From Ensifer sp. IC3342 (GTDB lineage: Bacteria; Pseudomonadota; Alphaproteobacteria; Rhizobiales; Rhizobiaceae): a stretch of DNA of 64,000 nt. Numbering within the stretch: the stretch's first letter is position 1; each line of letters starts with the position of its first letter. The translations under genes and the position numbers were made by a program. The stretch covers positions 186,001-250,000 of the forward strand of contig NZ_JADYVE010000004.1 of assembly GCF_020193655.1 (NCBI RefSeq), given 5' to 3'. Under the pieces are notes generated by a model, which was not told the origin of the DNA, did not search any database, and saw only the letters and a list, made by a program, of their open reading frames with translations. Positions 28,828 to 54,636 of the stretch are shown here, one piece after another.

Positions 28828-28957
28828 CGCCTTCCCCACGCTGATCAAATCGATGCTCCATAGCGCAGATCGCTGAGGCTGGCGACAGCGCGCCGAAGCG
28901 CACGCGTTCATTATCATACATCACTATCTCATTCATCATACAAAGGCAATTGACGAA

Positions 28958-28974
28958 TATGATGATTCATCATA
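28958..28974. promoter_or_regulatory. Operator palindrome of the galactonate/arabinose locus
   Basis: Perfect 8+1+8 palindrome TATGATGA-T-TCATCATA in the 191-base divergent spacer between the regulator gene and araF. Extra half-sites (TCATCATAC at 28933-28941, ATCATAC near 28913-28919) lie upstream. The size fits FadR-subfamily sites. Confidence 0.75.
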
Positions 28975-29018
28975 CACAAATGCCAACTGCAGGAGGCAGT
29001 TCACCAGGGAGAGACATC

Positions 29019-30002: not shown

Positions 30003-30024
30003 CCGTCCCTGACGGCATCAACGA

Positions 30025-30053
30025 GCCCGGTGGTACCACTCGTACCACCGGGC
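30025..30053 (+). promoter_or_regulatory. Intercistronic hairpin between araF and araG
   Basis: Perfect 12-bp stem GCCCGGTGGTAC/GTACCACCGGGC with a 5-base loop and no T tract, 22 bases after the araF stop. A hairpin here commonly stabilises the 3' end of the binding-protein message so that it exceeds the transporter subunits. Confidence 0.65.
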
Positions 30054-30073
30054 ATCTCGCTTCGGAGCAGCGC

Positions 30074-31600: not shown

Positions 31601-31602
31601 CG

Positions 31603-32553: not shown

Positions 32554-32558
32554 CCGGC

Positions 32559-33452
32559 ATGTCAAACGATGTCCTGCATCTCAAGAACGACGAACTCTCG
32601 ATTGAGCTGAGCCGCTTTGGCGGCTCGCTCGTCGCTGCGACCTGGCGCGGCATCCCGTTCCTGAAGCCGACTGCCGCCACCGGGATAGCGACGCAGCGTT
32701 TCGGCGCCGAGGCGAGCTTCCCGCTCGTGCCCTTCGGCAACAGGATCGAAGGCAACAGCTTCACCTTCGATGGGGAACACTTCATCCTCGAGCCGAATAC
32801 ATCCGGCGATCCACTCCGCCTGCATGGCGATGGATGGCTCAGCGAATGGGAGCTGGATTCGCACAGCGGGGAACAAGCGACACTTTCCTATGTGCGGGCC
32901 GAGCGGGTGGGAAGCCCCTATGTCTATGAGGCCGTGCAGGATGTGCGGCTTGATGGCAGCACTCTGGTTCTCTCCCTGACGGTCACGAACATGTCGGCTC
33001 GGCGATTACCCTTTGGATTGGGGCATCATCCCTTCTTTCCGCGCACGGCCGGGGCCCGGCTCCGGGCGAGGGCAAAACGCATCTGGGGCGAGAGGACCGG
33101 GCACCTGCCGGACGTTGCCGGCTCGATTCCCCGTACGCTCGATTTCTGCGACGGCAATACACTCCCTGCTCACTGGATCAACAATGCCTATGACGGCTGG
33201 GACGGAGAGGCTGTGATCGAATGGCCCGAACGTCAGCTTACTTTACGGCTTGAAACCGAGGGCGCGTTCGAGTGCTTCATGATCTATTCGCCGGGCGCGG
33301 ATGCAGACTTCTTCTGTTTCGAGCCGATGACGCATCTGCCTAATGCTCACAACATGCCGGCTGGAACCGGCGGCCTCGTGACGTTGGAGCAGGGACAAAG
33401 CCTTTCTGGAAGCGTCAGGCTTCACTTGGCCCCATTGGCCAGAGCGGGATGA
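32559..33452 (+). CDS. Aldose 1-epimerase (galactose mutarotase-like)
   Basis: 297 residues, GalM-type beta-sandwich. Active-site pieces are FPLVPFGNRIEG (substrate Asn-Arg), the His in RLHGDGW, the catalytic His pair region FGLGHHPFFPR and the Glu in FCFEPMTHLPNAHN. It interconverts sugar anomers so that the dehydrogenase receives the correct form. It begins 5 bases after the AraH-like gene, so is in its operon, and strengthens the case for galactose or arabinose as substrate. Confidence 0.92.
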   Translation: MSNDVLHLKNDELSIELSRFGGSLVAATWRGIPFLKPTAATGIATQRFGAEASFPLVPFGNRIEGNSFTFDGEHFILEPNTSGDPLRLHGDGWLSEWELDSHSGEQATLSYVRAERVGSPYVYEAVQDVRLDGSTLVLSLTVTNMSARRLPFGLGHHPFFPRTAGARLRARAKRIWGERTGHLPDVAGSIPRTLDFCDGNTLPAHWINNAYDGWDGEAVIEWPERQLTLRLETEGAFECFMIYSPGADADFFCFEPMTHLPNAHNMPAGTGGLVTLEQGQSLSGSVRLHLAPLARAG

Positions 33453-34055: not shown

Positions 34056-35363
34056 TCACCGCCGACCGGCAGAGGCCGAGATTTGCGCCGCCGACCAGGG
34101 AACGGAGCCGAGCTCATCCTCGAAGAGCTCGGGCATCAGATCGGCAAGCCGGACCAGCTTGCCCGTGCGCGAGCTCTGGAGTGCCGCGATGCCGCAGAGG
34201 ACCGACATTGCCCCGGCGCGGGCGCCTGCCCGCTGCCCCAACGTGTCCTTCGCGTCTGGCTTGAACAACATGTTCCGCAGCCGATCGTCACCGCCGTAGT
34301 GCCCGCCGGGCGAATGGGGCACGGCGATGCGCTCGACTCCCGGGCGCCCTTTCGGGAAATTGCGGACAAGCAGAATGACGTCTTCCTCCGGCATCTCCCA
34401 TGGCTGGTCCTCGTACTGGCGAAGCTCGATCCTGCCCTTCGTTCCGTTGAAAGCGATGTGGTGGCCCTCGATCGGCTGGAAGGTGTTCAGCGAATAGGAA
34501 ACGTGGACATTGTTGCGGTAGCGTATGTTCGCGACCATCGTATCGGGAATATCGATGTCCTCTCGGAAGACGCAGCCGTCGCGGAAATAACCGTCGATCT
34601 CGGAGGGATCCTCGTAGAGCGCGTCGAGGAATGGATCGGCTTCGAGATCCAGGTAGAAATCGCATTCATTCTTGTGTGGACAGAGCTTGCAGCGCGGCCC
34701 CCGGAACGGGCCCTTGCGCCCGTACATCTGCAGGTCGGCAAACGCCGTGACGGCATCCGGATCACTGTCGAGATACCAGTTCAGCAGGTCGAAATGGTGG
34801 GTCGCCTTGTGCACGAAGAGGCTGCCCGACTTGTCCGTGTAGGCGTGCCAGCGACGGAAATAGTCGGCGCCGTGCCTGGTGTCGAGATACCAATGAAAGT
34901 CGACGGAGGTCACCCGGCCGATCTCGCCGGAATTCAACAGTTCCTTGATGCGCGCCGCAGTCGGCGCGAAGCGGTAGTTGAACGACACGTCCACCCGCCG
35001 GCCGGTGCGCCTCTCGGCGTCCAGAATGCGGCGGATCTTTTCAACGGTCGTCGACATCGGCTTTTCGGTGATGACATCGGCACCGGCTTCAAGCGCGCGG
35101 ACGGCGATGTCGTCATGCGTGCTGTCCGGTGTGCAGACGATCACGAGATCGGGCCGCGCTTCGGCAAGCATGGTGTCGACATTGCCGTAGATGGGCGCGT
35201 TGGTGGCAATCATCGTGCGGGCGCGTTCGGCTCTGAGCGCATTCGTGTCGGCTATGGCGACGAGATCCACCTGGCCACGCCAACCGGCGAGCAGATCCTT
35301 GCCCCACATCGTGGTGCCGCGGTTGCCGGTGCCGACCAGCGCAAAACGACGTTTGTTATCCAT
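34056..35363 (-). CDS. Gfo/Idh/MocA oxidoreductase with a cysteine-rich insert
   Basis: 435 residues, longer than most of the family. Rossmann motif FALVGTGNRGTTMW at the N-terminus, then the EKP motif in ADVITEKPMSTT near residue 97. A cysteine cluster CKLCPHKNEC lies near residue 225, with one more Cys about 35 residues later (GCVF), suggesting a bound metal. It ends the minus-strand sugar operon, 166 bases after the isomerase gene, so it may also have its own promoter. Substrate unknown; probably an NAD(P)-dependent sugar dehydrogenase. Confidence 0.85.
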   Translation of the reverse strand: MDNKRRFALVGTGNRGTTMWGKDLLAGWRGQVDLVAIADTNALRAERARTMIATNAPIYGNVDTMLAEARPDLVIVCTPDSTHDDIAVRALEAGADVITEKPMSTTVEKIRRILDAERRTGRRVDVSFNYRFAPTAARIKELLNSGEIGRVTSVDFHWYLDTRHGADYFRRWHAYTDKSGSLFVHKATHHFDLLNWYLDSDPDAVTAFADLQMYGRKGPFRGPRCKLCPHKNECDFYLDLEADPFLDALYEDPSEIDGYFRDGCVFREDIDIPDTMVANIRYRNNVHVSYSLNTFQPIEGHHIAFNGTKGRIELRQYEDQPWEMPEEDVILLVRNFPKGRPGVERIAVPHSPGGHYGGDDRLRNMLFKPDAKDTLGQRAGARAGAMSVLCGIAALQSSRTGKLVRLADLMPELFEDELGSVPWSAAQISASAGRR

Positions 35364-35529
35364 CTTCCTCACGCAATCCTGTCTGGAGTGAAGCCGCGCG
35401 ACCGGCGGCAATGGCTATCACAACATGTAAACTCAACATACATGCTAGTGGCTGAAATCCGCGAGCGTCAAGGTGTTTTCCGCCACCTTTGTCACTAACT
35501 TGTAAGACGCATGATCGAGCAACCAATTC

Positions 35530-36354
35530 TCAGCAGCAGCTACGATAACGTTCCACGCAGGTAGCGATCACCTCCTCGGCCGGCCGCTTCCACCAATTCT
35601 CGGCTGAGAAAATCTCGACCTCCTGCGCCCCATAGAAGCCCGCCGCCTCGATCCGGCGCCTGATCCCCTTCAAATCGATGACGCCGTCGCCCATCATGCC
35701 GCGATCCGTCAGCATGTCCCTGGTCGGGACCAGCCAGTCGCAGATGTGATGCGCAAGGATCGCCTTCATTTCGCCCGCCCGCGCGATCTGGTTGGCGAGA
35801 TCGGGGTCCCACCAGACGTGATAGACGTCGATCGCGACACCGACGCCCGGGCCGAGCGCCTCACACATGTCGAGCGCCTGGCCGAGCGTGTTCACGCAGG
35901 CCCGATCGGCGGCATACATCGGATGCAGGGGCTCGATGGCAAGCGGCACGCCGGCGGCGCGCGCATGCCGCTGCACCGTAGCGATGCCGTCCTCGACCAT
36001 CCGGCGGGCAGCATCGATGTTCTTCGATCCTCCGGGCAGACCGCCGACGACCAGCACCAGGCAATCGGCGCCGAGCGCGGCCGCCTCGTCGATCGCGCGC
36101 CTGTTGTCCTCGATGGCCTTCTCGCGGCCCGCCGCGTCTGCTGCCGGAAAGAAGCCGCCGCGGCAGAGGCCAGTGAGCTTCAGTCCGTTGGATTTGACGA
36201 TGCGGACCGCCTCATCGAGGCCAACCGCCGCCACCTGATCCCGCCAAGGGGCGATCGCCGTGATCCCGTGTTTCAGGCAGATGTCCACGGCTTCGGCGAA
36301 ACCACACTGCTCCCGGATCGTCGCCAGATTGATCGAAAGCCCCTCGACCTGCAT
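35530..36354 (-). CDS. Sugar phosphate isomerase/epimerase (xylose isomerase-like TIM barrel)
   Basis: 274 residues of the AP endonuclease 2/IolE-like family. Metal ligand regions are IEPLHPMYAADRACVNTL (Glu), IDVYHVWWDP (Asp/His), ILAHHICDWLVP (His) and the Glu near the end in AQEVEIFSAENWW. The start MQVEGLSINLATI follows GGGAGGAGAA. It sits between the enolase-like gene and a Gfo/Idh/MocA gene. Members isomerise, epimerise or eliminate on keto-sugars. Confidence 0.87.
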   Translation of the reverse strand: MQVEGLSINLATIREQCGFAEAVDICLKHGITAIAPWRDQVAAVGLDEAVRIVKSNGLKLTGLCRGGFFPAADAAGREKAIEDNRRAIDEAAALGADCLVLVVGGLPGGSKNIDAARRMVEDGIATVQRHARAAGVPLAIEPLHPMYAADRACVNTLGQALDMCEALGPGVGVAIDVYHVWWDPDLANQIARAGEMKAILAHHICDWLVPTRDMLTDRGMMGDGVIDLKGIRRRIEAAGFYGAQEVEIFSAENWWKRPAEEVIATCVERYRSCC

Positions 36355-36395
36355 GTTGTTCTCCTCCCAGATTTCGTTTCGCACATGGACATGCA

Positions 36396-37814
36396 CTAGC
36401 TCGCCGTCATCGACGCCCAGTCCGGCTCGACGGACGAGCCAAGGCCGTCAGATCTCAAGGCAGTTCCAAAAGTGAGTTCGCCGCCCTTGATGGCGAGCCG
36501 CGCGCGGCCGGCCGCGCCTTCGTAAAGATCCGCATGGGCGGTGAGGTAAGACGCCTGCTCGCCCGCTGGCGCTTGCGCCATACCATCGACGTAATGGTGA
36601 CCGTTGCGTTCCACATGGCCGGCGCCGACGAGTGCCGCCAGAACGAGGTCCTGCTGGAGTGCCAGGCCCGATTGCGTCGTCAGGTCCTCCGCGGACATGA
36701 AATACCGGGACGAACCCGCCTCGCGGTTCCATTTCTCGACACGCGCACGGTTGAGCAGCGCCCGGTAGAAACCCTTGCAGGATTTCGACGAGATGCCGGC
36801 ATAGCCCAGGTCGCGGGCGCGCGGAAACGCGCCGATATCGCCGTCGGACTCGTCTATTTCCAAGGGAACCCGCTCGGCGACGGCAGCGACCGATTTCGAC
36901 AACGCCTCGGCGCGCGCAATCGGCTGTTCGAAGAAAAGTGTGGACCGACACAGCCTCGCGAGAAGCGGCTCCTTCTCGATACGGTCGAGAAGATCAGCGA
37001 CCGCATCGATGTTTTCGAACTGTTCGTTGCCGTCAAGCGTCACTTGATAGTCGTCGACCGTGCGATCGAGCACAGCGGCTATGGCCTGCAAACGTTCGGT
37101 GTCTTCGGCCGGGCGCCCGGAAACCTTGATCTTGAAATAGCGATGGCCATAAGCGGCAATCACCTCCTCGAGCGTCTGCGGCAAACCGTCCTTGAGCCGC
37201 TGCGCCGGCGCGAGCTCGGCGGCCGTCAGCGCATCGGCGAGCCCGATCGTATGGCGCACGGCGAGCCGCGGCGAAGGCTCCAGCCGTGAGAAAAAGTCTG
37301 TGAGATCGAAGCCCGCAAGATCCGGTGCGGTGGCGTTGGTGATGCCGAGCAGATCGTGCCGGACGGCCTCGGCCGCACTTGCGCCCTTCATCCGGCACAC
37401 GGCATCGATGATGGCACGATCGATGAGCGCCAGGCCGTATGAAGCCACCAGCGGCGGTAGATCCTCGCCCGCAGCCGTCCCGTGATGATCGGTCTCGGCG
37501 GCGGCATGCAGTCCGAAGGGCGTCGCCGCCCCCGTAGCCCGCAAGCCTTCGATCGCCAGATGCAGCGACGCGCGAAGCTGCGCGACGTTGTCATCCGGCG
37601 AAAGGGCCGCGTTCTTGTCGAACCATTTCGGCATCATCATCTCGGCGGACCAGCCAGTGGACTCATGGCCGCTTTCGTCCGCGATCCTTACCCGAACGAA
37701 GGCCTGCGGCGCGCTCGCGACGCGCGCCGCGCCGAATCGGAAGGGGAAGCGGAAGCCAACCTGCCGCTCGAAGATGTCCGCCTCTATGAGCCTGACGATG
37801 GGAGCCTCGTTCAT
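36396..37814 (-). CDS. Enolase-superfamily (mandelate racemase/muconate lactonising-like) protein
   Basis: 472 residues, about 90 longer than standard members. The barrel signatures are HRYFKIKVSGR (K-x-K acid/base), TLDGNEQFEN (first metal Asp), LFFEQPIA (second metal Glu) and LEIDESDGDIG (third metal Asp). The N-terminal cap has an unusually long form (residues 1-210). It starts MNEAPIVRLIEADIF 10 bases after the DUF993 gene. Probably dehydrates or epimerises a sugar acid, but I know of no characterised relative close enough to name a substrate. Confidence 0.8.
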   Translation of the reverse strand: MNEAPIVRLIEADIFERQVGFRFPFRFGAARVASAPQAFVRVRIADESGHESTGWSAEMMMPKWFDKNAALSPDDNVAQLRASLHLAIEGLRATGAATPFGLHAAAETDHHGTAAGEDLPPLVASYGLALIDRAIIDAVCRMKGASAAEAVRHDLLGITNATAPDLAGFDLTDFFSRLEPSPRLAVRHTIGLADALTAAELAPAQRLKDGLPQTLEEVIAAYGHRYFKIKVSGRPAEDTERLQAIAAVLDRTVDDYQVTLDGNEQFENIDAVADLLDRIEKEPLLARLCRSTLFFEQPIARAEALSKSVAAVAERVPLEIDESDGDIGAFPRARDLGYAGISSKSCKGFYRALLNRARVEKWNREAGSSRYFMSAEDLTTQSGLALQQDLVLAALVGAGHVERNGHHYVDGMAQAPAGEQASYLTAHADLYEGAAGRARLAIKGGELTFGTALRSDGLGSSVEPDWASMTAS

Positions 37815-37824
37815 GGCGGCGGCC

Positions 37825-38988
37825 TCAGTCGACGCCGTGGACGGCAAGGACGCGCCGCATGCGCGCGACCGCCAGTTCCGGATCGGCAAGGGCGCCCGCC
37901 CTGTCCGCCAGACGGAAGAGTTCGGCAAGATGAGCAAGCGAGCGCGCGCTCTGTTGCCCACCGATCATCACGAAATGATCCTGCAGGCCGTTGAGATAGG
38001 CGAGGAAGACGACGCCGGTCTTATAGAAGCGCGTTGGCGCCTTGAAGATATGGCGCGACAACGGCACGGTCGGCTCCAGCAATTCGAAGAATTCGCCGTT
38101 CCGCCCTTCGCCGAGCGCCTGGAGGGCCGCCGAGGCCACCGGCGCGATCGCATCGAAAATGCCGAGCAGTGCGTCCGAATATCCCTTCTCGTCGCCGGCA
38201 ATGAGTTCCGCGTAGTTGAAGTCGTCGCCGGTATACATGCGCACGCCCTTCGGCAGCCGGCGCCGCATCGCGATTTCCTTTTCCTTCGAGAGCAGCGATA
38301 TCTTGATGCCGTCGACCTTTTCGGCGTGCGCCTCGAGGACCGCAAGTGAGGTCTTCATCGCCTCCATGTGGTCGGCATTGCCCCAATAGCCTTCGAGCGC
38401 CGGGTCGAACATCTCGCCGAGCCAATGGATGATCACAGGCTCCTTCACCTGCGAAAGGATGCGGTCGTAGACGCGGATATAATCTTCCGGCCCTTGCGCC
38501 GCTGCCGCGAGCGCCCGGCTCGCCATCAGGATGATCCGCCCACCTTCGGCCTCGATCGCTTCGATCTGGCTCTCATAGGCCCTGAGAATATCTTCGATCG
38601 AGACATCGGGGCCGGGCGCCAGATGATCGGTGCCGGCGCCGCAGGCGATCAGCGCCCCGGAGCGCCCGCGCGCCTCGGCAAGCGCACGGCGGATGAGTTC
38701 GCGCGCTTCCGGCCAGCCGAGGCCCATGCCGCGCTGGGCCGTGTCCATCGCCTCGGCGACACCGAGACCGAGATCCCAGAGGCGGTGGCGAAAGGCGAGT
38801 GTCCGTTCCCAATCGATCGCCGGCGTCAGCCACGGCTCATTGTCGGCGAGCGTATCGGCGACGACGTGCGCGGCGGCGAAGGCAACCCTCGGGAAATCGG
38901 TCAGCGCACGTTTTTGCAACGGAACCGGCCGTCCGACCAACTCGTAACGCGTAAGCCTGCCTTCAAGGGGGAGATCAATGCTGGTCAT
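37825..38988 (-). CDS. DUF993, dihydrodipicolinate-synthase-like TIM barrel protein
   Basis: 387 residues. The family features are LIACGAGTDHLAPG, then VKEPVIIHWLGEMFDP and the lysine in VDGIKISLLSKEKE, which is placed like the Schiff-base lysine of class I aldolases (inference). The start lies 3 bases after the preceding oxidoreductase stop. DUF993 has no firmly known reaction; a retro-aldol or dehydration step on a keto-sugar acid is plausible in this operon. Confidence 0.85.
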   Translation of the reverse strand: MTSIDLPLEGRLTRYELVGRPVPLQKRALTDFPRVAFAAAHVVADTLADNEPWLTPAIDWERTLAFRHRLWDLGLGVAEAMDTAQRGMGLGWPEARELIRRALAEARGRSGALIACGAGTDHLAPGPDVSIEDILRAYESQIEAIEAEGGRIILMASRALAAAAQGPEDYIRVYDRILSQVKEPVIIHWLGEMFDPALEGYWGNADHMEAMKTSLAVLEAHAEKVDGIKISLLSKEKEIAMRRRLPKGVRMYTGDDFNYAELIAGDEKGYSDALLGIFDAIAPVASAALQALGEGRNGEFFELLEPTVPLSRHIFKAPTRFYKTGVVFLAYLNGLQDHFVMIGGQQSARSLAHLAELFRLADRAGALADPELAVARMRRVLAVHGVD

Positions 38989-38991
38989 CGC

Positions 38992-40140
38992 TCAAAACTC
39001 CAGTGCCGGTACATCGAGCCAGCGGCGCTCGGCCCAGGATTTCAGTCCGAGTTCCGCAAGCTGCACGCCCTTGGCGCCGGCCTCCAGACCGTAGGGCCAG
39101 GGGCCGTCCTCGGCGACATGGCGCAGGAACATTTCCCATTGCGCCTTGAAACCGTTGTCGAACACTTGCGTGTCCGGCACCTCGTCCCAGGTCTTGTAGA
39201 AATCGATGGTCTGCGGCTCATCCGGGTTCCAGACCGGCTTCGGCGTGTTGACGCGGTGCTGGGTCCAGCATTTCGTCAAGCCGGCGACGGCGGAACCGTG
39301 TGTGCCGTCGACCTGGAAGGTCACGAGATCGTCGCGGCGCACCCGCACGGTCCAGGAGGAATTGATCTGCGCGATGATGCCGCCATCGAGTTCGAAGGTT
39401 GCGTAGGCCGCATCGTCCGTATCGCAGTCATAGGTCCTGCCCTGCTCGTCGACGCGGCTTGGAATATGAGTGGCGCCGAGGCAGGAGACAGCGTGGACCT
39501 CGCCGAAGAGGTTGTCCAGCACGTAGCGCCAGTGGCAAAGCATATCGAGAATGATGCCGCCGCCGTCGCCCTTGCGGTAGTTCCACGATGGGCGCTGGGC
39601 AGGCACGCCCCAATCGCCTTCAAAGACCCAGTAGCCGAATTCGCCGCGCACCGAGAGGATCTTTCCGAAGAAGCCCGAGTCCCTGAGCAGCGCCAGCTTG
39701 CGCAGCCCGGGCAGGAACAGCTTGTCCTGCACGACGCCGTGCTTGAGGCCGGAGGCGCGCGCCTTGCGGGCAAGCTTAACGGCTATGCTGAGATCATCGG
39801 AAATCGGCTTCTCACAATAAACATGCTTGCCGGCATCGAGCGCCCTGCCGATGAGCTCGGCGCGCATCAGCGTCGTGCCGGCGTCGAAAAAGATCTGATC
39901 GTTGGGATCGGCCAGCGCCGCATCGAGATCGGTCGACCAGCGAGCGATGTTATGGCGCTTGGCCAGTTGCTCGATCTTGTCGCGGTTGCGGCCGACGATG
40001 ATCGGGTCGATCTCCAGCCGTTCACCGGACTTAAGCGTGATCCCACCCTGATCGCGAATGGCCAGTATCGAGCGCACCAAGTGCTGGTTGTAGCCCATGC
40101 GGCCGGTGACGCCGTGCAATATGATCCCCAAACGTGGCAT
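38992..40140 (-). CDS. Gfo/Idh/MocA family oxidoreductase, first gene of the TetR-controlled minus operon
   Basis: 382 residues. Unusual N-terminus MPRLGIILHGVTGRMGYNQH, in which the Rossmann glycines are G-V-T-G-R-M-G rather than GxGxxG. EKP motif in HVYCEKPISDD; the substrate domain has GGGIILDMLCHWRYVLD. The ATG at 40140 follows GGGAGGAGACC; the longer frame above it runs through the operator and is discounted. Probably NAD(P)-dependent sugar or inositol oxidation. Confidence 0.87.
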   Translation of the reverse strand: MPRLGIILHGVTGRMGYNQHLVRSILAIRDQGGITLKSGERLEIDPIIVGRNRDKIEQLAKRHNIARWSTDLDAALADPNDQIFFDAGTTLMRAELIGRALDAGKHVYCEKPISDDLSIAVKLARKARASGLKHGVVQDKLFLPGLRKLALLRDSGFFGKILSVRGEFGYWVFEGDWGVPAQRPSWNYRKGDGGGIILDMLCHWRYVLDNLFGEVHAVSCLGATHIPSRVDEQGRTYDCDTDDAAYATFELDGGIIAQINSSWTVRVRRDDLVTFQVDGTHGSAVAGLTKCWTQHRVNTPKPVWNPDEPQTIDFYKTWDEVPDTQVFDNGFKAQWEMFLRHVAEDGPWPYGLEAGAKGVQLAELGLKSWAERRWLDVPALEF

Positions 40141-40191
40141 GCGGTCTCCTCCCTGCCAGGCCTCACGGGAGCGGACCAGCCCTCCCAAGCC

Positions 40192-40209
40192 AGTAACTAA
40201 ACAGTTACT
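40192..40209 (-). promoter_or_regulatory. TetR operator 1 with promoter of the minus operon
   Basis: Perfect inverted repeat AGTAACT-AAAC-AGTTACT. On the minus strand a TTGACA (40233-40238) lies 23 bases upstream, so the operator covers the -10 to +1 area. The same arrangement with a related sequence is upstream of the plus operon at 41034-41079. Confidence 0.82.
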
Positions 40210-40262
40210 TTGTGGCAGAGAAAAAGCACGCCTGTCAACACAAAAAACGACATGTTGAAGAT

Positions 40263-40940
40263 TCAGCGCCTGATCGAAGCCAAAGTCACGTGAACGATGT
40301 GACGCTCCCAGCCCTCGAGATTGGGGCGTTCCGCGAGATCGCGGCCAAAGATCGTCGACAGCGTGTACTGGTTCGAGAGATAGAAATAACCGAGCGCCGC
40401 CATCGTCAGATAGAGGTGCAGTGGATCGACATCCTCCCGGAAGAGGCCCTTTGCCCTGCCCCGGTCCAGCAACTCGGAGAGCTTGCCCATGAGTTGCGAA
40501 TGCAGTTCCTTGAGCCGCGTCGACTGACGCAGCCAGCGGGCGCGATGAAGGTTCTCGGTACCGAGCAGACTCAGAAACTCCGGGTGCTCAAGGAAGTACC
40601 TCCATGTGAACATCGCCAGCTCGGCAATACCCTGCTCCGGTTCCAAGTCGCTGAGATTGATAGCTTTTTCTGCTGTCCTTATGCCGATATAGGCCTCCTC
40701 CAGGACCGCGAGGTAGAGCTGCTCCTTGTCGCCGAAGTAATGGTAGAGCATGCGCTTGTTGATACCGGCCCGCTCGGCTATGGCATCGACTCGCGCCCCG
40801 CCCATGCCGTTTTCCGCAAATTCCTTGGTGGCGGCCGCAAGGATAGATGCGCGCGTCCGTTCGGGATCGCGCTGCGCGGAGCGCTCAGCACGCTCGCCGT
40901 TTCCATTCGTTCCTCTCGCGCCCGCTTGCGCCTTCTCCAT
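40263..40940 (-). CDS. TetR/AcrR-family regulator
   Basis: 225 residues. The TetR helix-turn-helix is at about residues 28-75 (ILAAATKEFAENGMGGARVD, then RAGINKRMLYHYFGDKEQLY). The remaining all-helical domain is of the TetR_C type. The ATG at 40940 follows GGAGGTGAT; another ATG at 40976 is less likely. It stands between two operons that share an 18-bp operator, and is therefore the likely repressor of both. A palindrome AAAGTACTTT (40993-41002) near its own start might serve autoregulation. Confidence 0.92.
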   Translation of the reverse strand: MEKAQAGARGTNGNGERAERSAQRDPERTRASILAAATKEFAENGMGGARVDAIAERAGINKRMLYHYFGDKEQLYLAVLEEAYIGIRTAEKAINLSDLEPEQGIAELAMFTWRYFLEHPEFLSLLGTENLHRARWLRQSTRLKELHSQLMGKLSELLDRGRAKGLFREDVDPLHLYLTMAALGYFYLSNQYTLSTIFGRDLAERPNLEGWERHIVHVTLASIRR

Positions 40941-41033
40941 TACATCACCTCCGGCACCGCTTGCCTTTGGCGGCATTCGATGCGACCTCGTAAAAGTACT
41001 TTACAAGATAATGACAGCATTTCACACAACTGC

Positions 41034-41079
41034 TTGACACGATCTTTGCTTGTCCCTAGTTTGTAACCAATTAGTTATT
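41034..41079 (+). promoter_or_regulatory. Promoter and TetR operator 2 of the plus operon
   Basis: TTGACA (41034-41039), 17 bases, then TAGTTT (41057-41062). The operator TGTAACCAATTAGTTATT (41062-41079) overlaps the -10 and start; it matches operator 1 at 13 of 18 positions, with TAAC/GTTA arms at the same spacing. Confidence 0.78.
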
Positions 41080-41149
41080 TATTGCAAGAGGTCTCAACAA
41101 GACGATGACACGGAGCGTTGTGGAGGCGCTCCCGAGGGAGGAGGAACAA

Positions 41150-42436
41150 ATGACGCATCGCATCAGCAGACGCAGTGTGCTTACAGGAGGAGCAGCACTT
41201 CTTTCATATGCGGCTTTCGCGCCGCGCGCCTTTTCCGAGGAGGCGCGGTTGCGCCTGCTCTGGTGGGGATCGCAGACCCGGGCCGACCGCACCAGCAAGG
41301 TCAGCGAGCTTTTCAAGAAGGCGAATGCCGGGGTTTCCATCAACGGCGAATTCCTCGGCTGGAGTGACTACTGGCCGCGCCTGGCGACGCAGGTCGCAGG
41401 GGGCAACGCGCCCGACGTCATCCAGATGGATTACCGCTATATCGTTGAATATGCCCGGCGCGGGGCGCTCGCGCCGCTCGACAGCTATCTCGGCTCCGTG
41501 CTGGAGGTCGAGGATTTCGATCAGGTGCAGATCAAGGGCGGCAGCGTCGACGGCAAACTCTACGGCATCAGCCTCGGCGCCAATTCGACGGCGATGATGG
41601 TCAACACTGTCGCCTTCGAGGAAGCCGGCGTCGACCTGCCGACGCCATCGACCACCTGGGACGAGCTCGCCCGCATGGGTATCGAGATCACCAAGGCCGG
41701 CAAACGCAAGGGCTATTACGGTCTCTCCGACGGCAGCGGCGTCGAGCCGCTCCTCGAAAACTGGCTTCGCCAGCGCGGCAAGGCCCTCTTCACCGCGGAT
41801 GGCAAGATCGCCTATGACGCGAACGACGGGGCCGAATGGTTTGCCATGTGGCAGAAGATGCGCGATGACAAGGCCTGCGTGCCGGCGGACATTCAGGCAC
41901 TCGACCAGTTCAACATCGAGACGAGTCCCTTGTCGCTCGGAAAGGCGGCAACGTCCTATGCCCATTCCAACCAGCTCGTCGGCTATCAGGCGATCAACAA
42001 AGACAAGATCGTGCTGAGAAGCCATGCGTTGATCAGCAAGGATGCCAAGGGCGGCCACTACCGCAAACCGTCGATGTTCTTCTCGGTATCGGCCAAGAGC
42101 AGCGATCCGGAACTCTGCGCCAAATACGTCAACTTCTTCGTCAAGGATCCGGAAGCGGCCAAGATCCTCGGCGTCGAACGCGGCGTGCCGGAATCGGCCT
42201 CCGTGCGCGAGGCGCTCGCGCCGTCGCTCGATGACCTCGGGCGGGCAGCACTCGAATATGTCTCCGGGCTCGGAGCGCTCGCCGGCGACCTGCCGCCGCC
42301 GCCGCCCTCGGGCGCCGGCGAGGCGGAGCTGGCTCTGCGCAGTGTCGCCGAGCAGGTGGCGTTCGGGCAGCTCGACGCCAAGCAGGGCGGCGAGACGCTA
42401 GTGAACGAGATCACACAGATCCTGTCGCGAGGTTAA
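41150..42436 (+). CDS. Tat-exported extracellular sugar-binding protein of ABC transporter
   Basis: 428 residues. The N-terminus has a twin-arginine signal (SRRSVLTGGAALLSYAAF, cleavage near SEEA). The mature protein LRLLWWGSQTRADRT follows the type-1 sugar-binding fold, with GGNAPDVIQMDY and SYAHSNQLVGYQ. It is a paralogue of the protein encoded at 57876-59162, also 428 residues. First gene of an operon with two permeases, two oxidoreductases and an ATPase. Confidence 0.92.
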   Translation: MTHRISRRSVLTGGAALLSYAAFAPRAFSEEARLRLLWWGSQTRADRTSKVSELFKKANAGVSINGEFLGWSDYWPRLATQVAGGNAPDVIQMDYRYIVEYARRGALAPLDSYLGSVLEVEDFDQVQIKGGSVDGKLYGISLGANSTAMMVNTVAFEEAGVDLPTPSTTWDELARMGIEITKAGKRKGYYGLSDGSGVEPLLENWLRQRGKALFTADGKIAYDANDGAEWFAMWQKMRDDKACVPADIQALDQFNIETSPLSLGKAATSYAHSNQLVGYQAINKDKIVLRSHALISKDAKGGHYRKPSMFFSVSAKSSDPELCAKYVNFFVKDPEAAKILGVERGVPESASVREALAPSLDDLGRAALEYVSGLGALAGDLPPPPPSGAGEAELALRSVAEQVAFGQLDAKQGGETLVNEITQILSRG

Positions 42437-42440
42437 GGGG

Positions 42441-43397
42441 ATGGCGGCCGTGCAGGATACCGCTGTCGTCGTCGGTGCGGGCGCCAACGGGCGCCCCGCC
42501 GCACAGGGCCGATGGGCCTCCATCTGGGCGAAGCACGGAGCCGGTTACATGTTCCTGTTGCCGTGGCTCATCGGCTTCTTCGGCCTGACGCTCGGGCCTG
42601 CGGTTGCCTCGCTCTATCTCTCCTTCACGAGCTTCGACCTGATCCGCGCTCCGGAATGGGTCGGGACGGCCAACTACGTGCGCATCGCGACCGCCGATCC
42701 GAAATTCGCCGCCGCGATGCAGGTGACCTTCCTCTATGTCATGCTTTCGGTGCCGTTCAAGCTCACCTTCGCGCTGCTCGTCGCCATCCTTCTCGATCGC
42801 GGCGTCCGGGGACTCACCGTCTATCGCGCGATCTTCTATCTGCCTTCGCTGCTCGGCGGCAGCGTTGCGATCGCCGTGCTCTGGCGGCAGCTTTTTGCGG
42901 GCGACGGCCTCATCAATAGCCTGCTTGCCCAGTTCGGCATCGAGGGCCCGAGTTGGATCTCGCATCCGGACTATTCGATCTGGACGCTCGTCGTCTTGAG
43001 CGTCTGGCAATTCGGCTCGCCGATGATCATCTTCCTTGCCGGCCTTCGCCAGATTCCGACCGACATGTATGAGGCCGCAAGCCTCGACGGCGCGTCAAAG
43101 TTCCGGCAGTTCTGCAAGATCACACTGCCGCTGCTCACCCCGGTTATCTTCTTCAATGCGGTGGTTCAAACGATCGATGCCTTCAAGGCCTTCACCCCGG
43201 CCTTCATTATTTCCGGCGGCACCGGCGGACCGATCAACTCGACGCTCTTCTATACGCTCTATCTCTACCAGGAAGCCTTCGGCAATTTCCGCATGGGCTA
43301 TGCCTCGGCCTTGGCCTGGATCCTGGTGGTGATCATCGCGCTTTTCACCGCCTTTTCCTTCGTGACCTCTCGCTACTGGGTGCACTACGATGACTGA
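42441..43397 (+). CDS. Sugar ABC transporter permease, MalF/UgpA type
   Basis: 318 residues with six helices; first helix at about 35-58 (YMFLLPWLIGFFGLTLGPA) and EAA loop MYEAASLDGASKFRQF near residue 215. It starts 4 bases after the binding-protein stop and overlaps the next gene by 8 bases. Inner membrane. Confidence 0.94.
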   Translation: MAAVQDTAVVVGAGANGRPAAQGRWASIWAKHGAGYMFLLPWLIGFFGLTLGPAVASLYLSFTSFDLIRAPEWVGTANYVRIATADPKFAAAMQVTFLYVMLSVPFKLTFALLVAILLDRGVRGLTVYRAIFYLPSLLGGSVAIAVLWRQLFAGDGLINSLLAQFGIEGPSWISHPDYSIWTLVVLSVWQFGSPMIIFLAGLRQIPTDMYEAASLDGASKFRQFCKITLPLLTPVIFFNAVVQTIDAFKAFTPAFIISGGTGGPINSTLFYTLYLYQEAFGNFRMGYASALAWILVVIIALFTAFSFVTSRYWVHYDD

Positions 43398-44277
43398 CGC
43401 GACCATGAGCTCCGTAACCGCCCCGTCATCGGCACCGCTCGGCCGCCGCGGCCCATTGGGGTCGGTCCTTGTGCACGCCGGCCTGGTCGCCGCCTCGATC
43501 GCGATGCTCTACCCGCTCCTGTGGATGATTTCCGCGTCGGTGCGGCCGGAGGACGAGATCTTCGCCTCGACGTCGCTCTGGCCGTCGTCGATCGACTTCG
43601 CATCCTATTTGCGTGGCTGGTTCGGCCTCGACGTCAGTTTCGGCCGCTTCTTCTGGAATTCTCTCGTCGTGTCCGTGCTGACAGTGATCGGCAATGTCGT
43701 CGCCTGTTCGCTTGCGGCCTACGCCTTCGCGCGACTTCGCTTCGCAGGGCGCAATTTCTGGTTCGCGATCATGCTGGGGACGCTGATGATCCCCTATCAC
43801 GTGACGCTTATCCCCCAATATGTGCTCTTCCTCAATCTCGGCTGGGTGAATACCTTCCTGCCGCTCGTGGTGCCGAAATTCCTGGCCAGCGACGCCTTCT
43901 TCATCTTCCTGATGGTCCAGTTCTTCCGCGGCATCCCGCGCGAACTCGACGAGGCGGCGATGATGGACGGCTGCGGTCCGTGGCGCATCTACTGGAAGAT
44001 CATGCTGCCGCTTTCCCTGCCGGTGCTTGCGACGGCCGCGATCTTCTCCTTCATCTGGACCTGGGACGATTTCTTCGGACCGCTGATCTACCTGAACGAC
44101 ATGAATACCTACACGATCCAGCTCGGCCTCCGGACCTTCGTCGACTCGAGCAGCACATCCGACTGGGGCGGACTCTTCGCGATGTCGACGCTGTCGCTTG
44201 TGCCCGTGTTCTTCTTCTTCCTGTTCTTCCAGCGCCTTCTGATCGAAGGCATCGCCACCACCGGCATGAAGCGCTAA
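43390..44277 (+). CDS. Sugar ABC transporter permease, MalG/UgpE type
   Basis: 295 residues, six helices, EAA loop ELDEAAMMDGCGPWRIYW near residue 190 and a C-terminal end FFQRLLIEGIATTGMKR typical of the class. It overlaps the MalF-like gene by 8 nt. Confidence 0.94.
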   Translation: MTDATMSSVTAPSSAPLGRRGPLGSVLVHAGLVAASIAMLYPLLWMISASVRPEDEIFASTSLWPSSIDFASYLRGWFGLDVSFGRFFWNSLVVSVLTVIGNVVACSLAAYAFARLRFAGRNFWFAIMLGTLMIPYHVTLIPQYVLFLNLGWVNTFLPLVVPKFLASDAFFIFLMVQFFRGIPRELDEAAMMDGCGPWRIYWKIMLPLSLPVLATAAIFSFIWTWDDFFGPLIYLNDMNTYTIQLGLRTFVDSSSTSDWGGLFAMSTLSLVPVFFFFLFFQRLLIEGIATTGMKR

Positions 44278-44299
44278 TCGAAGGAGCTGGAGTTTACCC

Positions 44300-45316
44300 A
44301 TGGACGAATTGCGTTTTGCCGCGGTCGGGCTCAACCACAACCACATCTACGGCCAGGTCAATTGCCTTCTAAGAGCCGGCGCCCGCCTTGTCGGCTTCCA
44401 CGAACCGGACGATGTTTTGGCCGCGGAGTTCTCGACCACGTACAAGGATGTGCCGCGTATTGGGACACTCGACCGGATACTCGAAGACGAGAGCATCGGC
44501 CTCATCACATCGGCTTCCGTTTCTGCCGAGCGGGCGGAACTTGCGATTCGCGCCATGCGCCACGGCAAGGACGTGCTCGTCGACAAGCCGGGCATGACGA
44601 GCCTCGACCAGTTCGCCAAGGTGCGCCGCGTCCAGGCCGAAACGGGGCGCATTTTCTCGATCCTCTATTCCGAGCATTTCGAGAGCCCGGCGACCGTGAA
44701 AGCCGGTGAGCTGGTCGCCGCCGGCGCCATCGGCGAGGTCGTGCACATGGTCGGCCTCGGACCGCACCGGCTGCGCAAGGAAAGCCGCCCCGGCTGGTTC
44801 TTCCGCCGTTCGGAATATGGCGGCATCTTGACCGACATCGCGTCGCACCAGTGCGAGCAGTTCCTCTTCTTCGCGGGCGCCAGCGATGCCACCATTCTCT
44901 CGGCAAGTGTCGACAACCGGAGCGTTCCCGACAGCCCGGAACTGCAGGATACGGGGAACATCCATCTTTCGATGGGCCGGGCCACCGGCATGATCCATGT
45001 GAACTGGCTCACCCCGGACGGCATGCCGACCTGGGGCGACGGCCGGCTCTTCATCGTCGGCACGACCGGCACGATCGAGGTTCGCAAGACGGTGGACCTC
45101 GCCGGGCGCGCAGGGGGCAACCACCTGCTTCTTGCCGACCGCAACGGCGTCGAGCACATCGATTGCTCGGGCGTCGACCTTCCGTTCGGCCGACAGCTCC
45201 TCGCCGACATCCGCGACAGAACCGAAACCGCCATGCCGCAGGAACGCTGCTTCAAGGCCATGGAGCTTGCTCTTTCGGCGCAAGTGATCGCCGAACGTAA
45301 CCAGGAAAAGCACTGA
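44300..45316 (+). CDS. Gfo/Idh/MocA family oxidoreductase with DKP in place of EKP
   Basis: 338 residues. Start MDELRFAAVGLNHNHIYGQV after AAGGAGCTGGAG; the Rossmann turn is G-L-N-H-N-H, not GxGxxG. The usual EKP lysine motif reads DVLVDKPGMTS, and the substrate-domain His is in DIASHQCEQFLFF. The missing glycines and the DKP variant suggest an unusual subfamily that may still bind NAD(P) or may act differently. Lies between transporter subunits and a canonical paralogue. Confidence 0.87.
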   Translation: MDELRFAAVGLNHNHIYGQVNCLLRAGARLVGFHEPDDVLAAEFSTTYKDVPRIGTLDRILEDESIGLITSASVSAERAELAIRAMRHGKDVLVDKPGMTSLDQFAKVRRVQAETGRIFSILYSEHFESPATVKAGELVAAGAIGEVVHMVGLGPHRLRKESRPGWFFRRSEYGGILTDIASHQCEQFLFFAGASDATILSASVDNRSVPDSPELQDTGNIHLSMGRATGMIHVNWLTPDGMPTWGDGRLFIVGTTGTIEVRKTVDLAGRAGGNHLLLADRNGVEHIDCSGVDLPFGRQLLADIRDRTETAMPQERCFKAMELALSAQVIAERNQEKH

Positions 45317-45317
45317 T

Positions 45318-46391
45318 ATGAGCGTAAAGACAGTTGCCATCATCGGCTGCGGGATCGGGCGGTCGCACATCGTCGAAGGCTATCTGCCACATCCGGACAA
45401 GTTCCGGGTCACGGCACTCTGCGACCTCAACGAGCAGCGCCTGAACGACGTGGGCAACGAGTTCGGCATCGAAAAGCGAACGACCTCGTTCAAGGAACTG
45501 CTTGCCGACGACAGCATCGACATCATCGATATCTGCACGCCGCCCGGCATTCACCTCGAACAGGTGCTCGACGCGCTGGCCTCGGGTAAGCATGTGATCT
45601 GCGAGAAGCCACTCACCGGTTCGCTCAAGGGCGTCGACCGGATCATAGAGGCGGAGAAGCACGCCAAAGGCGTATTGATGCCGATCTTCCAGTACCGCTA
45701 CGGCGACGGCATCGAGAAGGCGAAGCGCATCATCGAGGCCGGCATTGCCGGCAAACCCTATGTGGGCTCGGTCGAAACCTTCTGGCTGCGCACGCCGGAA
45801 TATTACGCGGTTCCCTGGCGTGGCAAATGGGAGACCGAACTCGGCGGCGTGCTGGTGACGCATGCTCTGCATCTGCACGACATGATGCTGCATCTCCTCG
45901 GACCGGTCGCAAGGGTGTTCGGGCGCGTCGCGACACGGGTCAACGATATCGAGGTCGAAGACTGCGCCTCGGCAAGCCTGCTCATGCAGAACGGCGCCTT
46001 CGTATCGCTCTCCTGCACGCTCGGCTCGCAGGAGCAGATAAGCCGCCTTCGCCTGCACTTCGAGAACGTTACTTTCGAAAGCAGCCATGAACCCTACGCG
46101 CCGGGCAAGGATCCCTGGAAGATCATTGCCGCCAACGAAGCCGTTCAGGCTGAGATCGACGAAGTGATCGGCGACTGGCGTCCGGTTTCGCCGCGTTTCA
46201 CGACGCAGATGGCCCATTTCCACGCCTTTCTCAGCGGCAACGGGCCGCTTCCGGTCACCACAAAGGACGCACGGCAAGCGTTGGAATTGGTGACGGCGAT
46301 CTATCAGTCCGCCGATACGGGTCGCGAGATAACGCTTCCGATCGGGCCGGAGAGTCCGAAATACGCCAACTGGCGCGCGAATACGAGGTAA
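45318..46391 (+). CDS. Gfo/Idh/MocA family oxidoreductase
   Basis: 357 residues. Rossmann start VAIIGCGIGRSHIVEGYL, EKP motif HVICEKPLTGS, and the substrate-domain His in LGGVLVTHALHLHDMML. It begins one base after the stop of the preceding oxidoreductase gene (TGATATG). Two adjacent oxidoreductases in a transporter operon suggest successive or alternative oxidation of the imported sugar. Confidence 0.9.
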   Translation: MSVKTVAIIGCGIGRSHIVEGYLPHPDKFRVTALCDLNEQRLNDVGNEFGIEKRTTSFKELLADDSIDIIDICTPPGIHLEQVLDALASGKHVICEKPLTGSLKGVDRIIEAEKHAKGVLMPIFQYRYGDGIEKAKRIIEAGIAGKPYVGSVETFWLRTPEYYAVPWRGKWETELGGVLVTHALHLHDMMLHLLGPVARVFGRVATRVNDIEVEDCASASLLMQNGAFVSLSCTLGSQEQISRLRLHFENVTFESSHEPYAPGKDPWKIIAANEAVQAEIDEVIGDWRPVSPRFTTQMAHFHAFLSGNGPLPVTTKDARQALELVTAIYQSADTGREITLPIGPESPKYANWRANTR

Positions 46392-46419
46392 CGGCAAAGG
46401 CCGCAGGGAGGAATTCGAA

Positions 46420-47499
46420 ATGGCAACCAGCGTCGTTCTTCAGAAAGTCGAGAAGCGCTATGGCGCGCTCGATGTGATCCACGGCATCGACCTCACCATC
46501 GACCCCGGCGAGTTCGCCGTCTTCGTCGGCCCGTCCGGTTGCGGCAAGTCGACCCTGCTGCGCATGATCGCCGGTCTGGAGGAGATTTCCGGCGGCACGC
46601 TCATGCTTGACAACGACCGGATGAACGAGGTGGCGCCGGCCAAGCGCGGCATCGCCATGGTATTCCAGTCCTATGCGCTCTACCCGCACATGTCCGTCTA
46701 TAAGAACCTCGCCTTCGGTCTAGAGACGGCGGGCTACAGGAAGGCGGAGATCGAGCCGAAGGTGCGTCGCGCCGCCGAGATCCTGCAGATCGAGAAGCTG
46801 CTCGACCGCAAGCCGAAGGCGCTCTCCGGCGGACAGCGCCAGCGCGTGGCGATCGGCCGGGCGATCGTGCGCGAGCCGCGCATCTTCCTCTTCGACGAGC
46901 CGCTTTCCAACCTCGATGCGGAACTCCGCGTACAGATGCGCGTCGAAATCTCGCGGCTTCACCGCGATCTCGGCAACACGATGATCTATGTGACCCACGA
47001 TCAGGTGGAAGCCATGACGATGGCCGACAAGATCGTCGTCCTGAACTCCGGGCGGATCGAGCAGGTGGGAGCGCCGCTCGATCTTTACAACCACCCGGTC
47101 AACCGCTTCGTTGCCGGGTTCATCGGCAGCCCGAAGATGAACTTCCTCAAGGCGCGCATCGCTGCCGTCGGTGAAGCGGAAACAGCGATCCAGGTTTGCG
47201 GCGGCACGATCCGCCTGCCGCGCGCCCTGAACGGCGCAACGGCGGGACAGGAGGTGACCTTCGGCATTCGGCCGGAACATCTTTCCGCGCACGACGATGG
47301 CATCGCGCTCGCGCCGATCAATGTCGAGCTCGTTGAAAACCTCGGCGGCGAAACCATGCTCTACGGCATCACCCCTGACGGCCAGCACATCACGGTCGCG
47401 CTCGAAGGTCAGCAGAAAGTGGAGCGCGGCACCAATCTCGCCGTCCACTTCGATTCGTCGCGCTGCCACGTGTTCGGCGCCGACGGCAAGGCGATGTGA
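46420..47499 (+). CDS. Sugar ABC transporter ATP-binding protein, MalK/UgpC type
   Basis: 359 residues: Walker [13 protein letters not shown], signature [14 protein letters not shown], Walker [14 protein letters not shown]-loop YVTHDQVEAMTMAD, then a TOBE domain ending near FGIRPEHLS. The start has GGGAGGAATT. Completes the importer encoded from 41150. Confidence 0.94.
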   Translation: MATSVVLQKVEKRYGALDVIHGIDLTIDPGEFAVFVGPSGCGKSTLLRMIAGLEEISGGTLMLDNDRMNEVAPAKRGIAMVFQSYALYPHMSVYKNLAFGLETAGYRKAEIEPKVRRAAEILQIEKLLDRKPKALSGGQRQRVAIGRAIVREPRIFLFDEPLSNLDAELRVQMRVEISRLHRDLGNTMIYVTHDQVEAMTMADKIVVLNSGRIEQVGAPLDLYNHPVNRFVAGFIGSPKMNFLKARIAAVGEAETAIQVCGGTIRLPRALNGATAGQEVTFGIRPEHLSAHDDGIALAPINVELVENLGGETMLYGITPDGQHITVALEGQQKVERGTNLAVHFDSSRCHVFGADGKAM

Positions 47500-48572: not shown

Positions 48573-49043
48573 ATGACTGCCAAACTTGATCCCTTCGCCG
48601 CTGCCCCGTCGCTGATGAAGAGCTGGATGAGCACATCGGTCGCCGCCGCCTCGAGCCTCGAGCCAAGTCTCATCGAATTGGTGAAGATCCGCGCCTCGCA
48701 GATCAACGGCTGCGCCAACTGCATCAACATGCATACGGTGGAAGCGCGGGCAAAAGGCGAAACGGAGCAGCGCATCTATCTGCTGTCGGCATGGCGTGAA
48801 GCCCCCTGCTATTCCGCTCGCGAGCGCGCCGCGCTAGGCTGGACCGAGGCACTGACGCGGCTGTCAGAAGGCCATGCGCACGAAAGCGCCTATGAGGCCT
48901 TGAAGGCTCAGTTCACCGAGGAGGAGCAGGTGAAGCTCACGCTCATGATCAACGTCATCAACGGGTGGAACCGCCTTGCAGTTGGCTTCGGCCTGTGGGT
49001 CGATCCGGCCGCGGCAAAGGCCGCTGCCCAGGCGGCCGCCTGA
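48573..49043 (+). CDS. Carboxymuconolactone decarboxylase/AhpD-like alkylhydroperoxidase
   Basis: 156 residues, all helical. The active site CANCINMH gives C47, C50 and H54, the AhpD redox motif CxxC-x3-H; KIRASQ precedes it as in the family. ECF41 genes are commonly linked to such proteins (or to oxidoreductases or epimerases), and here the sigma gene overlaps its stop codon by one base. Confidence 0.92.
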   Translation: MTAKLDPFAAAPSLMKSWMSTSVAAASSLEPSLIELVKIRASQINGCANCINMHTVEARAKGETEQRIYLLSAWREAPCYSARERAALGWTEALTRLSEGHAHESAYEALKAQFTEEEQVKLTLMINVINGWNRLAVGFGLWVDPAAAKAAAQAAA

Positions 49044-54350: not shown

Positions 54351-54459
54351 AATGGTAGAGGAGATGGCGCGGGTAAGGCGCCGAACTCTTGGGCGACAGG
54401 CGCTGGCATGGGATCGGATAAGCTCCGAATTCCAAAAATCGGCGACACGGGTGTCGATA

Positions 54460-54636
54460 CCCCCCTCTGCCCTGCCGGGCATCTCCCCCACAACGGGGGA
54501 GATTGAGGAGGCACCGTATTCCACCACGGCCACTTCACGCCGCGAGGTTAACTCTGCCGAAGTGAGGGAATGGGGAGCCCGCACCTTGCCGATCTCCCCC
54601 CTTGTGGGGGAGATGCCTGGCAGGGCAGAGGGGGGT
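54460..54636. repeat. Inverted-repeat element with 45-bp arms (C-motif type)
   Basis: Left arm CCCCCCTCTGCCCTGCCGGG...(54460-54505) and right arm ...CCTGGCAGGGCAGAGGGGGG (54591-54636) are near-perfect inverted copies around about 85 bases. Each arm also has its own ATCTCCCCC/GGGGGAGAT hairpin. A third repeat family, of a type widespread in Rhizobiales, between two convergent genes. Confidence 0.82.

Follow-up and report, generated by a model that had tools for sequence, protein, structure and literature searches.

What does a single TetR regulator govern when it lies among a sugar importer, four different Gfo/Idh/MocA oxidoreductases and a protein of the DUF993 family, and which compound do these proteins handle? 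The question is raised by positions 34056–47499 of a 64,000-nucleotide stretch of the genome of Ensifer sp. IC3342 (contig NZ_JADYVE010000004.1), referred to below as the window. The twelve genes there encode TetR, a solute-binding protein (SBP), two permeases, an ATPase, the four oxidoreductases (GfoA–GfoD), the DUF993 protein, an enolase-superfamily protein (Eno) and a TIM-barrel protein (Iso), and the nearest named relatives of the cluster belong to Sinorhizobium and Ensifer. Judging from sequence comparison, the genes very probably form one TetR regulon comprising two operons. We give an even chance to the view that this regulon serves the import of a sugar acid and its breakdown through oxidation, cleavage by the DUF993 protein and isomerisation.

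Gene layout

Every gene named in the initial annotation was found in its place. The likely starts of Eno (37814), Iso (36354), GfoA (35363), GfoB (40140), TetR (40940) and SBP (41150) were taken from internal Met codons.

34056–35363, minus strand: GfoA, oxidoreductase of the Gfo/Idh/MocA family in which a C-x2-C-type insert is visible by eye; the left arm ends with this gene
35530–36354, minus strand: Iso, AP_endonuc_2 metal-dependent TIM barrel (family match; PDB relatives 3ju2 and 3qc0)
36396–37814, minus strand: Eno, enolase-superfamily protein of MLE type, 472 aa
37825–38988, minus strand: DUF993 protein, DHDPS fold, 617 bits to DUF993
38992–40140, minus strand: GfoB, Gfo/Idh/MocA oxidoreductase, relative of PDB 3oqb, directly downstream of the left operator
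40193–40208: left TetR operator, GTAACTAAACAGTTAC, exact, before GfoB (alignment and pattern scan)
40233–40238, minus strand: TTGACA, −35-like box of the left operon
40263–40940, minus strand: TetR-family regulator, domains TetR_N and TetR_C_29
41034–41039, plus strand: TTGACA, −35-like box of the right operon
41063–41078: right TetR operator, GTAACCAATTAGTTAT, one mismatch to a perfect palindrome, before SBP
41150–42436, plus strand: SBP, with a twin-arginine signal (by eye), starting MTHRISRRSVLTGG
42441–43397, plus strand: PermA, ATP-binding cassette (ABC) permease
43390–44277, plus strand: PermB, ABC permease
44300–45316, plus strand: GfoC, Gfo/Idh/MocA oxidoreductase, relative of PDB 3u3x
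45318–46391, plus strand: GfoD, Gfo/Idh/MocA oxidoreductase, nearest solved structures 3q2k and 3q2i
46420–47499, plus strand: MalK/UgpC-type ABC ATPase

TetR lies on the strand of the left arm, separated from GfoB by 122 bp, and the TetR/SBP intergenic region is the divergent region common to both arms. A purine-rich box precedes the starts of TetR, GfoB and SBP (by eye). The gap of about 166 bp between Iso and GfoA holds a TTGAC box and is kept in 10 of 12 aligned Sinorhizobium sequences; in Rhizobium sequences it is short. The gap and the box, with no TetR operator seen before GfoA in a window scan at up to 2 mismatches of 12, suggest that GfoA may have a promoter of its own.

A probable two-operon TetR regulon

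The operator was found by aligning both intergenic regions of the window with those of 11 Sinorhizobium relatives. One inverted repeat is kept in both regions, as GTAACY-N4-RGTTAC before GfoB and as GTAACC-N4-AGTTAT before SBP, and each copy sits just downstream of the TTGACA box of its arm. A loose form of the pattern has 8 matches on the two strands of the window, compared with a mean of 0.58 and a largest value of 4 in shuffles. In the whole 7.42-Mb assembly, the composite TTGACA-N20..28-GTAACY-N4-RGTTAY occurs in two places, namely the two arms, and its reversed control in none; this composite was derived from these very sites, and it is its uniqueness that counts, not its presence. The perfect 18-mer AGTAAC-N6-GTTACT occurs in a single place in the assembly. 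Inspection by eye of the 36 genomic places with up to 2 mismatches (reversed control, 207) revealed no convincing further member of the regulon.

The arms are also inherited together. GfoC orthologues with at least 85% identity occur in 31 of the 33 genomes of the genus, about 6.4 kb from a type-I DUF993 gene on the same contig, and the two genomes that lack GfoC also lack type-I DUF993; with these two genes as markers, both arms are linked in 31 genomes and neither is present in 2. One arm alone was found neither in the genus nor among 27 long loci (defined below) with a regulon-type SBP and PermA. The two-operon regulon is thus well supported by a composite unique to both arms and by their linkage in the genus, and the single TetR regulon proposed in the initial annotation holds up. 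Because the orthologues of both arms are conserved and like operators precede both, the cluster goes beyond a chance assembly. One TetR would repress both operons by binding the near-identical operators just downstream of the −35 boxes, and would be released by a ligand of the pathway.

In S. meliloti, SMc04130 is the counterpart of the TIM barrel (PDB 3ju2) and SMc04132 that of DUF993 (PDB 4dnh); gene order suggests that SMc04133 is GfoB, SMc04135 is SBP, and SMc04138 and SMc04139 are GfoC and GfoD. According to PMC12542648, the proteins SMc04132, SMc04133, SMc04135, SMc04138 and SMc04139 were found in TY medium alone, and their levels in phbC phaR differed from those in phbC by log2 values of −1.69, −3.65, −1.23, −1.31 and −1.07, respectively; that is, both arms co-vary in this proteome. 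SMc04134 appears as a network node in PMC11387232.

A conserved core with exchangeable importers

Eighty named DUF993 loci were sampled for the operator and for neighbouring genes. The operator is exact in 46 of them and present with at most one mismatch in 59. The exact sites number 55, compared with a mean of 0.20 and at most 4 for 59 permuted half-sites. One permuted half-site, GATCA, gave 57 sites in 42 loci at up to one mismatch, which makes the one-mismatch counts weak by themselves; the argument therefore rests on the exact counts.

Genes were counted in the 66 loci longer than 19 kb (the long loci), the remaining 14 of the 80 being left out, with family thresholds that we set. The conserved unit is TetR–GfoB–DUF993–(Eno)–TIM barrel, which recurs across Alphaproteobacteria: Iso is found in all 66 long loci, GfoB in 65, a TetR relative somewhere in the locus in 60, Eno in 30 and GfoA in 19. 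GfoB lies immediately upstream of DUF993 in every one of the 65 loci that have it, and Iso follows at most 1.8 kb downstream on the same strand in 59 of the 66. The importers vary: MalFGK-type transporters occur in 27 loci, NMT1-type in 16 and TTT in 13, including two loci with both MalFGK and TTT and two with MalFGK and NMT1, while 14 have none by our thresholds (one of those scored without a transporter, L088, holds a lone TctC). In other lineages the left-arm core thus pairs with other transporters, and we regard the ten-gene pathway of the initial annotation as a core module with a lineage-specific import arm.

The operator accompanies these exchanges to different degrees. Among the long loci it is found in 27/27 with a MalFGK-type transporter, 10/11 with TTT only, 5/14 with NMT1 only and 10/14 with none seen. 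The sites precede varied transporter genes, namely those for SBP, TctC, an NMT1-type protein and, in Caulobacter, a TonB receptor and an MFS carrier, as well as GfoB or genes adjoining it. At up to one mismatch, no operator is found in six DUF993 loci that have LacI as a regulator (L032, L138, L139, L141, L143 and L144). Genome G000 (loci L002 and L032) has a second DUF993 gene (59% identical; G000:C93:132143–133288), which adjoins a LacI regulator and an M3 peptidase gene and has no operator. The Bradyrhizobium-type loci L117, L118, L120, L121, L122, L126, L127 and L128 keep TetR, Eno, GfoB, DUF993 and Iso, in most cases together with an ABC transporter of the NMT1 type. Clusters L111, L119 and L125 also encode a PhyH-type dioxygenase, and a second DHDPS-family protein is found in eight named loci, which suggests other entry compounds. 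Outside Alphaproteobacteria, the actinobacterium Glaciihabitans has the order Gfo–DUF993–TIM barrel–glycerate kinase.

A further variant is formed by DUF993 paralogue clusters (S. meliloti pSymA type; Paracoccus, Sagittula and Roseateles), in which an SDR protein, annotated as 3-ketoacyl-ACP reductase, precedes DUF993 in place of GfoB. Unlike the regulon, they carry CoA-transferase, enoyl-CoA hydratase, acyl-CoA dehydrogenase and mostly glycerate kinase genes. Like the regulon, all six (L042, L137, L145, L148, L149 and L150) have the operator with at most one mismatch, five of them exactly, and a related TetR is found in both of the records that were extended. Iso is annotated beside the paralogue in L148, L149 and L150 and was matched in L042. 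An RbsABC-type importer is present where the upstream region was inspected, with no operator before it at up to one mismatch. These clusters resemble a route that is linked to CoA and shares the DUF993/TIM-barrel end, and, since DUF993 and the TIM barrel recur with varied partner genes and the operator, the two seem to form the part that stays constant across several routes. Glycerate kinase is annotated in 7 of 17 plasmid loci.

The DUF993 protein and its partner enzymes

Structure comparisons by Foldseek and VIA-align revealed that the DUF993 protein has the TIM-barrel fold of DHDPS, a class I aldolase. Lys229, invariant in 33 sequences, lies on strand 6 (residues 225–231) and is placed, in a weak alignment, at the Schiff-base Lys of DHDPS. 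The DHDPS family is marked by a GTTGE loop and a catalytic Tyr. In the DUF993 protein, residues 81–87 after strand 2 read MDTAQRG, which is invariant, the GxxGE pyruvate-carboxylate motif is missing, and His188 aligns with the position of the Tyr. We considered a pyruvate-dependent aldolase and set it aside: the fold and the lysine are shared, but GxxGE is lacking and His stands for Tyr. A Pfam search gave no DHDPS match to the protein.

Eno keeps the MLE-type site: strand 2 bears KxK, strand 6 a Lys, and the three acidic ligands of the metal (D-E-D/E) are also in place. A sequence search of the PDB at E 0.001 gave no match to it. The enlarged enolase of the initial annotation is a conserved protein that exceeds its solved relatives in length by about 100 residues, but the open reading frame of 521 aa overstates its length because it runs into the DUF993 gene. 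In Iso, E155, D190, H217 and E259/E261 are near-invariant in 78 sequences (numbered from the reading-frame start at 36396). The structures nearest to GfoD, 3q2k and 3q2i, are presumably WlbA uronate 3-dehydrogenases, an identity not used as evidence here.

A possible sequence of steps, proposed because the gene order is constant, is oxidation by GfoB, C–C cleavage by the DUF993 protein and isomerisation by Iso. The right operon would import the substrate through the Tat-exported SBP and a MalFGK-type ABC transporter, and GfoA, GfoC and GfoD would adjust the oxidation state or position of the incoming sugar. Using NAD(P), GfoB would turn a secondary hydroxyl into a ketone, the DUF993 protein would form a Schiff base through Lys229 and then break a C–C bond, and the metal-dependent Iso would isomerise a cleavage product. 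Eno, of the general-base (Lys/Lys) type, would take an intermediate with a carboxylate as its substrate in those lineages that require such a step. The substrate would be a uronic acid or a uronide, possibly unsaturated, such as pectin or glucuronoside fragments, and would yield a C3 acid leaving by glycerate.

We tentatively propose, as a claim somewhat short of an even chance, that the DUF993 protein represents a new class of Schiff-base C–C lyase, cleaving a GfoB product that is a keto-uronide or a keto acid of related kind. It would act within a portable, kinase-free oxidise–cleave–isomerise module of an undescribed sugar-acid pathway, kept under one TetR/operator pair (GTAACY-N4-RGTTAC) in many Alphaproteobacteria although the importer or dehydrogenase is swapped, including in the CoA-linked clusters.

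Substrate of the pathway

The nearest solved relatives of SBP with a known function are YesO (4r6k and 5z6b) and, further down, TogB (2uvg–2uvj). According to PMC7596534 and PMC8839585, YesO binds DeltaGalUA-Rha-Gal and TogB was solved with galacturonic acid oligomers. Two relatives of GfoC (46–51% identical) adjoin uxaC and uxuA, and one relative of Eno is placed with KduI/IolB and GH39. A second SBP and its neighbours lie at the right end of the window, which ends 44 bp past them.

57876–59219, minus strand: satellite SBP, 41% identical to the regulon SBP, outside the regulon
59325–63956, plus strand: satellite operon LacI – DUF2264 – D-2-hydroxyacid dehydrogenase – AP_endonuc_2 TIM barrel, diverging from the satellite SBP

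Neither in the window nor in L203 or six Rhizobium-type loci does the satellite SBP have a neighbouring permease gene that closely resembles PermA or PermB, and it may therefore share the permeases of the regulon. DUF2264 flanks DUF993 in 10 of the 80 named loci, namely six of Rhizobium type (with SBP and LacI), three of Agrobacterium/Rhizobium nepotum and L078, and in the six Rhizobium-type loci a satellite-like operon adjoins the TetR regulon. The Pfam family DUF2264 presumably corresponds to GH154. Its solved relatives include 9o4u and 9nwf, named glucuronate dehydratases, and 8oi4, named beta-galactosidase, which matches equally. In PMC12269599, which does not use the Pfam name, a Bacteroides glucuronate dehydratase makes a Delta4,5-unsaturated uronide, and 9o4u and 9nwf are assigned to GH154. 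The absence of a glycosidase, as first annotated, is borne out for the families matched inside the regulon, but the linked LacI operon encodes DUF2264 with these relatives. Taken together, the kinship with YesO and TogB, the hexuronate neighbours of GfoC relatives, the MLE-type site of Eno and the linked DUF2264, each of them indirect, slightly favour a carboxylated sugar or uronide as the substrate.

Several observations weigh against the sugar-acid regulon as drawn here. SBP is distant from both YesO (207 bits) and TogB (124 bits). One GfoC relative (47%, Rhizobium leguminosarum) has no uronate genes nearby; its neighbours include genes for urea carboxylase and methylmalonyl-CoA mutase, which show no obvious connection. 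The DUF2264 operon occurs in those 10 of 80 loci only, and in the window no TetR operator is found there. A search with NCBIfam-type models found no uronate equivalog inside the regulon, and the GH88/105, KduI, KduD and KDG kinase that classical unsaturated-uronide catabolism needs are also missing from it. NMT1-type transporters, present in 16 of the 66 long loci, are not known for uronides. Glycerate kinase occurs in only 2 of the 80 named loci (L082 and L123); we therefore dropped it as a general partner and do not claim it for this cluster, so that a C3 end is supported mainly for the paralogue clusters. The sequence-only alignment of DUF993 with DHDPS is weak (local hhalign probability 0.6%; nothing in the global mode), so their kinship rests on the comparison of structures. 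No operator at up to one mismatch is found in 21 of the 80 named loci, 7 of these on contigs shorter than 19 kb; it is lacking from the TetR-bearing plasmid loci L135 and L146 and from eight or nine Bradyrhizobium-type loci, in which no other common palindrome was seen by eye and TetR may read a different site. Finally, the proteomic co-variation of the arms is one of many in a module with unrelated proteins, and its partly imputed values may reflect an indirect effect.

Alternative readings

Three other readings were weighed. In the first, which we consider rather unlikely, the pathway would cleave a 3-keto-glycoside of the levoglucosan or C-glycoside kind: a Gfo protein would oxidise C3, the TIM barrel would catalyse beta-elimination, and a second Gfo protein would reduce the free 3-keto sugar. 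GfoA and GfoD match DgpA/glucuronide-3-dehydrogenase chains (67/50 and 79/57 bits, respectively), and enzymes of similar kinds serve the levoglucosan path, which comprises the dehydrogenase LgdA, the Gfo/Idh/MocA reductase LgdC and a pair of proteins that carry the annotation sugar phosphate isomerase, according to PMC7676230. However, the levoglucosan dehydrogenase (LgdA) model scores 33–96 bits against a cut-off of 650, and the regulon has a single such TIM barrel, which accompanies DUF993 in 66/66 long loci, whereas the lgd path has no DUF993. This route can be reconciled with a uronide substrate if the uronide is opened by 3-oxidation.

Less likely still is a regulon for cyclitols (inositol, methyl-inositol or quinate-like compounds), in which the Gfo proteins would make inososes or diketo-inositols, the DUF993 protein would open the ring, and the TIM barrel would act like the keto-gluconate epimerase IolO or the dehydratase IolE. 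In NCBIfam, three of the four Gfo proteins do receive iolG as their best name and Iso receives IolO, and the closest function-known solved relative of GfoB is scyllo-inositol/L-glucose dehydrogenase (57 bits). The scores nevertheless fall far short: 93.6, 60.4, 38.3 and 102.7 bits to iolG (TIGR04380; 38–103 against a cut-off of 355) and 28.6 against 300 to IolO. The IolB/C/D families were not found in the regulon, and the carboxylate-directed Eno, SBP and the DUF2264 links would be left unexplained; the inositol-type route suggested in the initial annotation is thus not supported in that form. That the two arms handle different compounds and merely share a regulator is improbable: the left core has other transporters in other lineages, and in three order-level genomes a GfoC relative (48–59%) is 83 kb away from DUF993 or the two are on different contigs, but within the genus the arms share their gains and losses (31 genomes with both and 2 with neither, of 33) and the operators precede transporter genes of several classes.

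Neighbouring genes

Just left of the regulon, positions 28950–33452 encode a ribose-type ABC importer followed by aldose 1-epimerase. At 48573–49900, a Carboxymuconolactone-decarboxylase-like gene overlaps the reading frame of a sigma-70-type regulator. Positions 53394–57215 hold a gene for a DHDPS-family protein (25.5 bits) near one for an ILVD/EDD dehydratase; the two may form a sugar-acid dehydratase/aldolase set of their own.

Comparison with known systems

Literature searches agree with the initial annotation that the gene set is not a described pathway, and no account of it was found in the texts searched, supplements aside. The myo-inositol iol system shares the Gfo dehydrogenase and TIM-barrel isomerase families with the regulon, in which no iol equivalog reaches its cut-off. 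The levoglucosan genes lgdA-lgdB1-lgdB2-lgdC likewise encode Gfo/Idh/MocA-type and "sugar phosphate isomerase" proteins, but include neither DUF993 nor an enolase among their four enzymes. The pectin-oligosaccharide importers YesOPQ and TogB share the SBP family and an ABC sugar importer with the regulon, whose SBP is remote and has a Tat-type signal, and which contains no pectinase genes. At 387 aa, the DUF993 protein is larger than members of the DHDPS/NAL superfamily (about 295 aa) and, by strand order, has MDTAQRG at the position of their GTTGE loop. Eno exceeds the MLE subgroup of the enolase superfamily (muconate cycloisomerase, dipeptide epimerase and OSBS) by about 100 residues.

The DUF993 protein, the TIM barrel, GfoB and GfoC all have close solved relatives whose PDB names carry no established reaction; the common regulon and operator, together with the exchange of transporters, place the four enzymes in one context and yield a short list of candidate substrates. 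DUF993 was found in 35 of 385 sampled alphaproteobacterial genomes (about 1 in 11), so that assigning its reaction would annotate a widespread pathway. Read as a sugar-acid catabolic regulon, the system would be a variant of a familiar kind, with an operator newly described here and, at its centre, an enzyme family of no assigned reaction.

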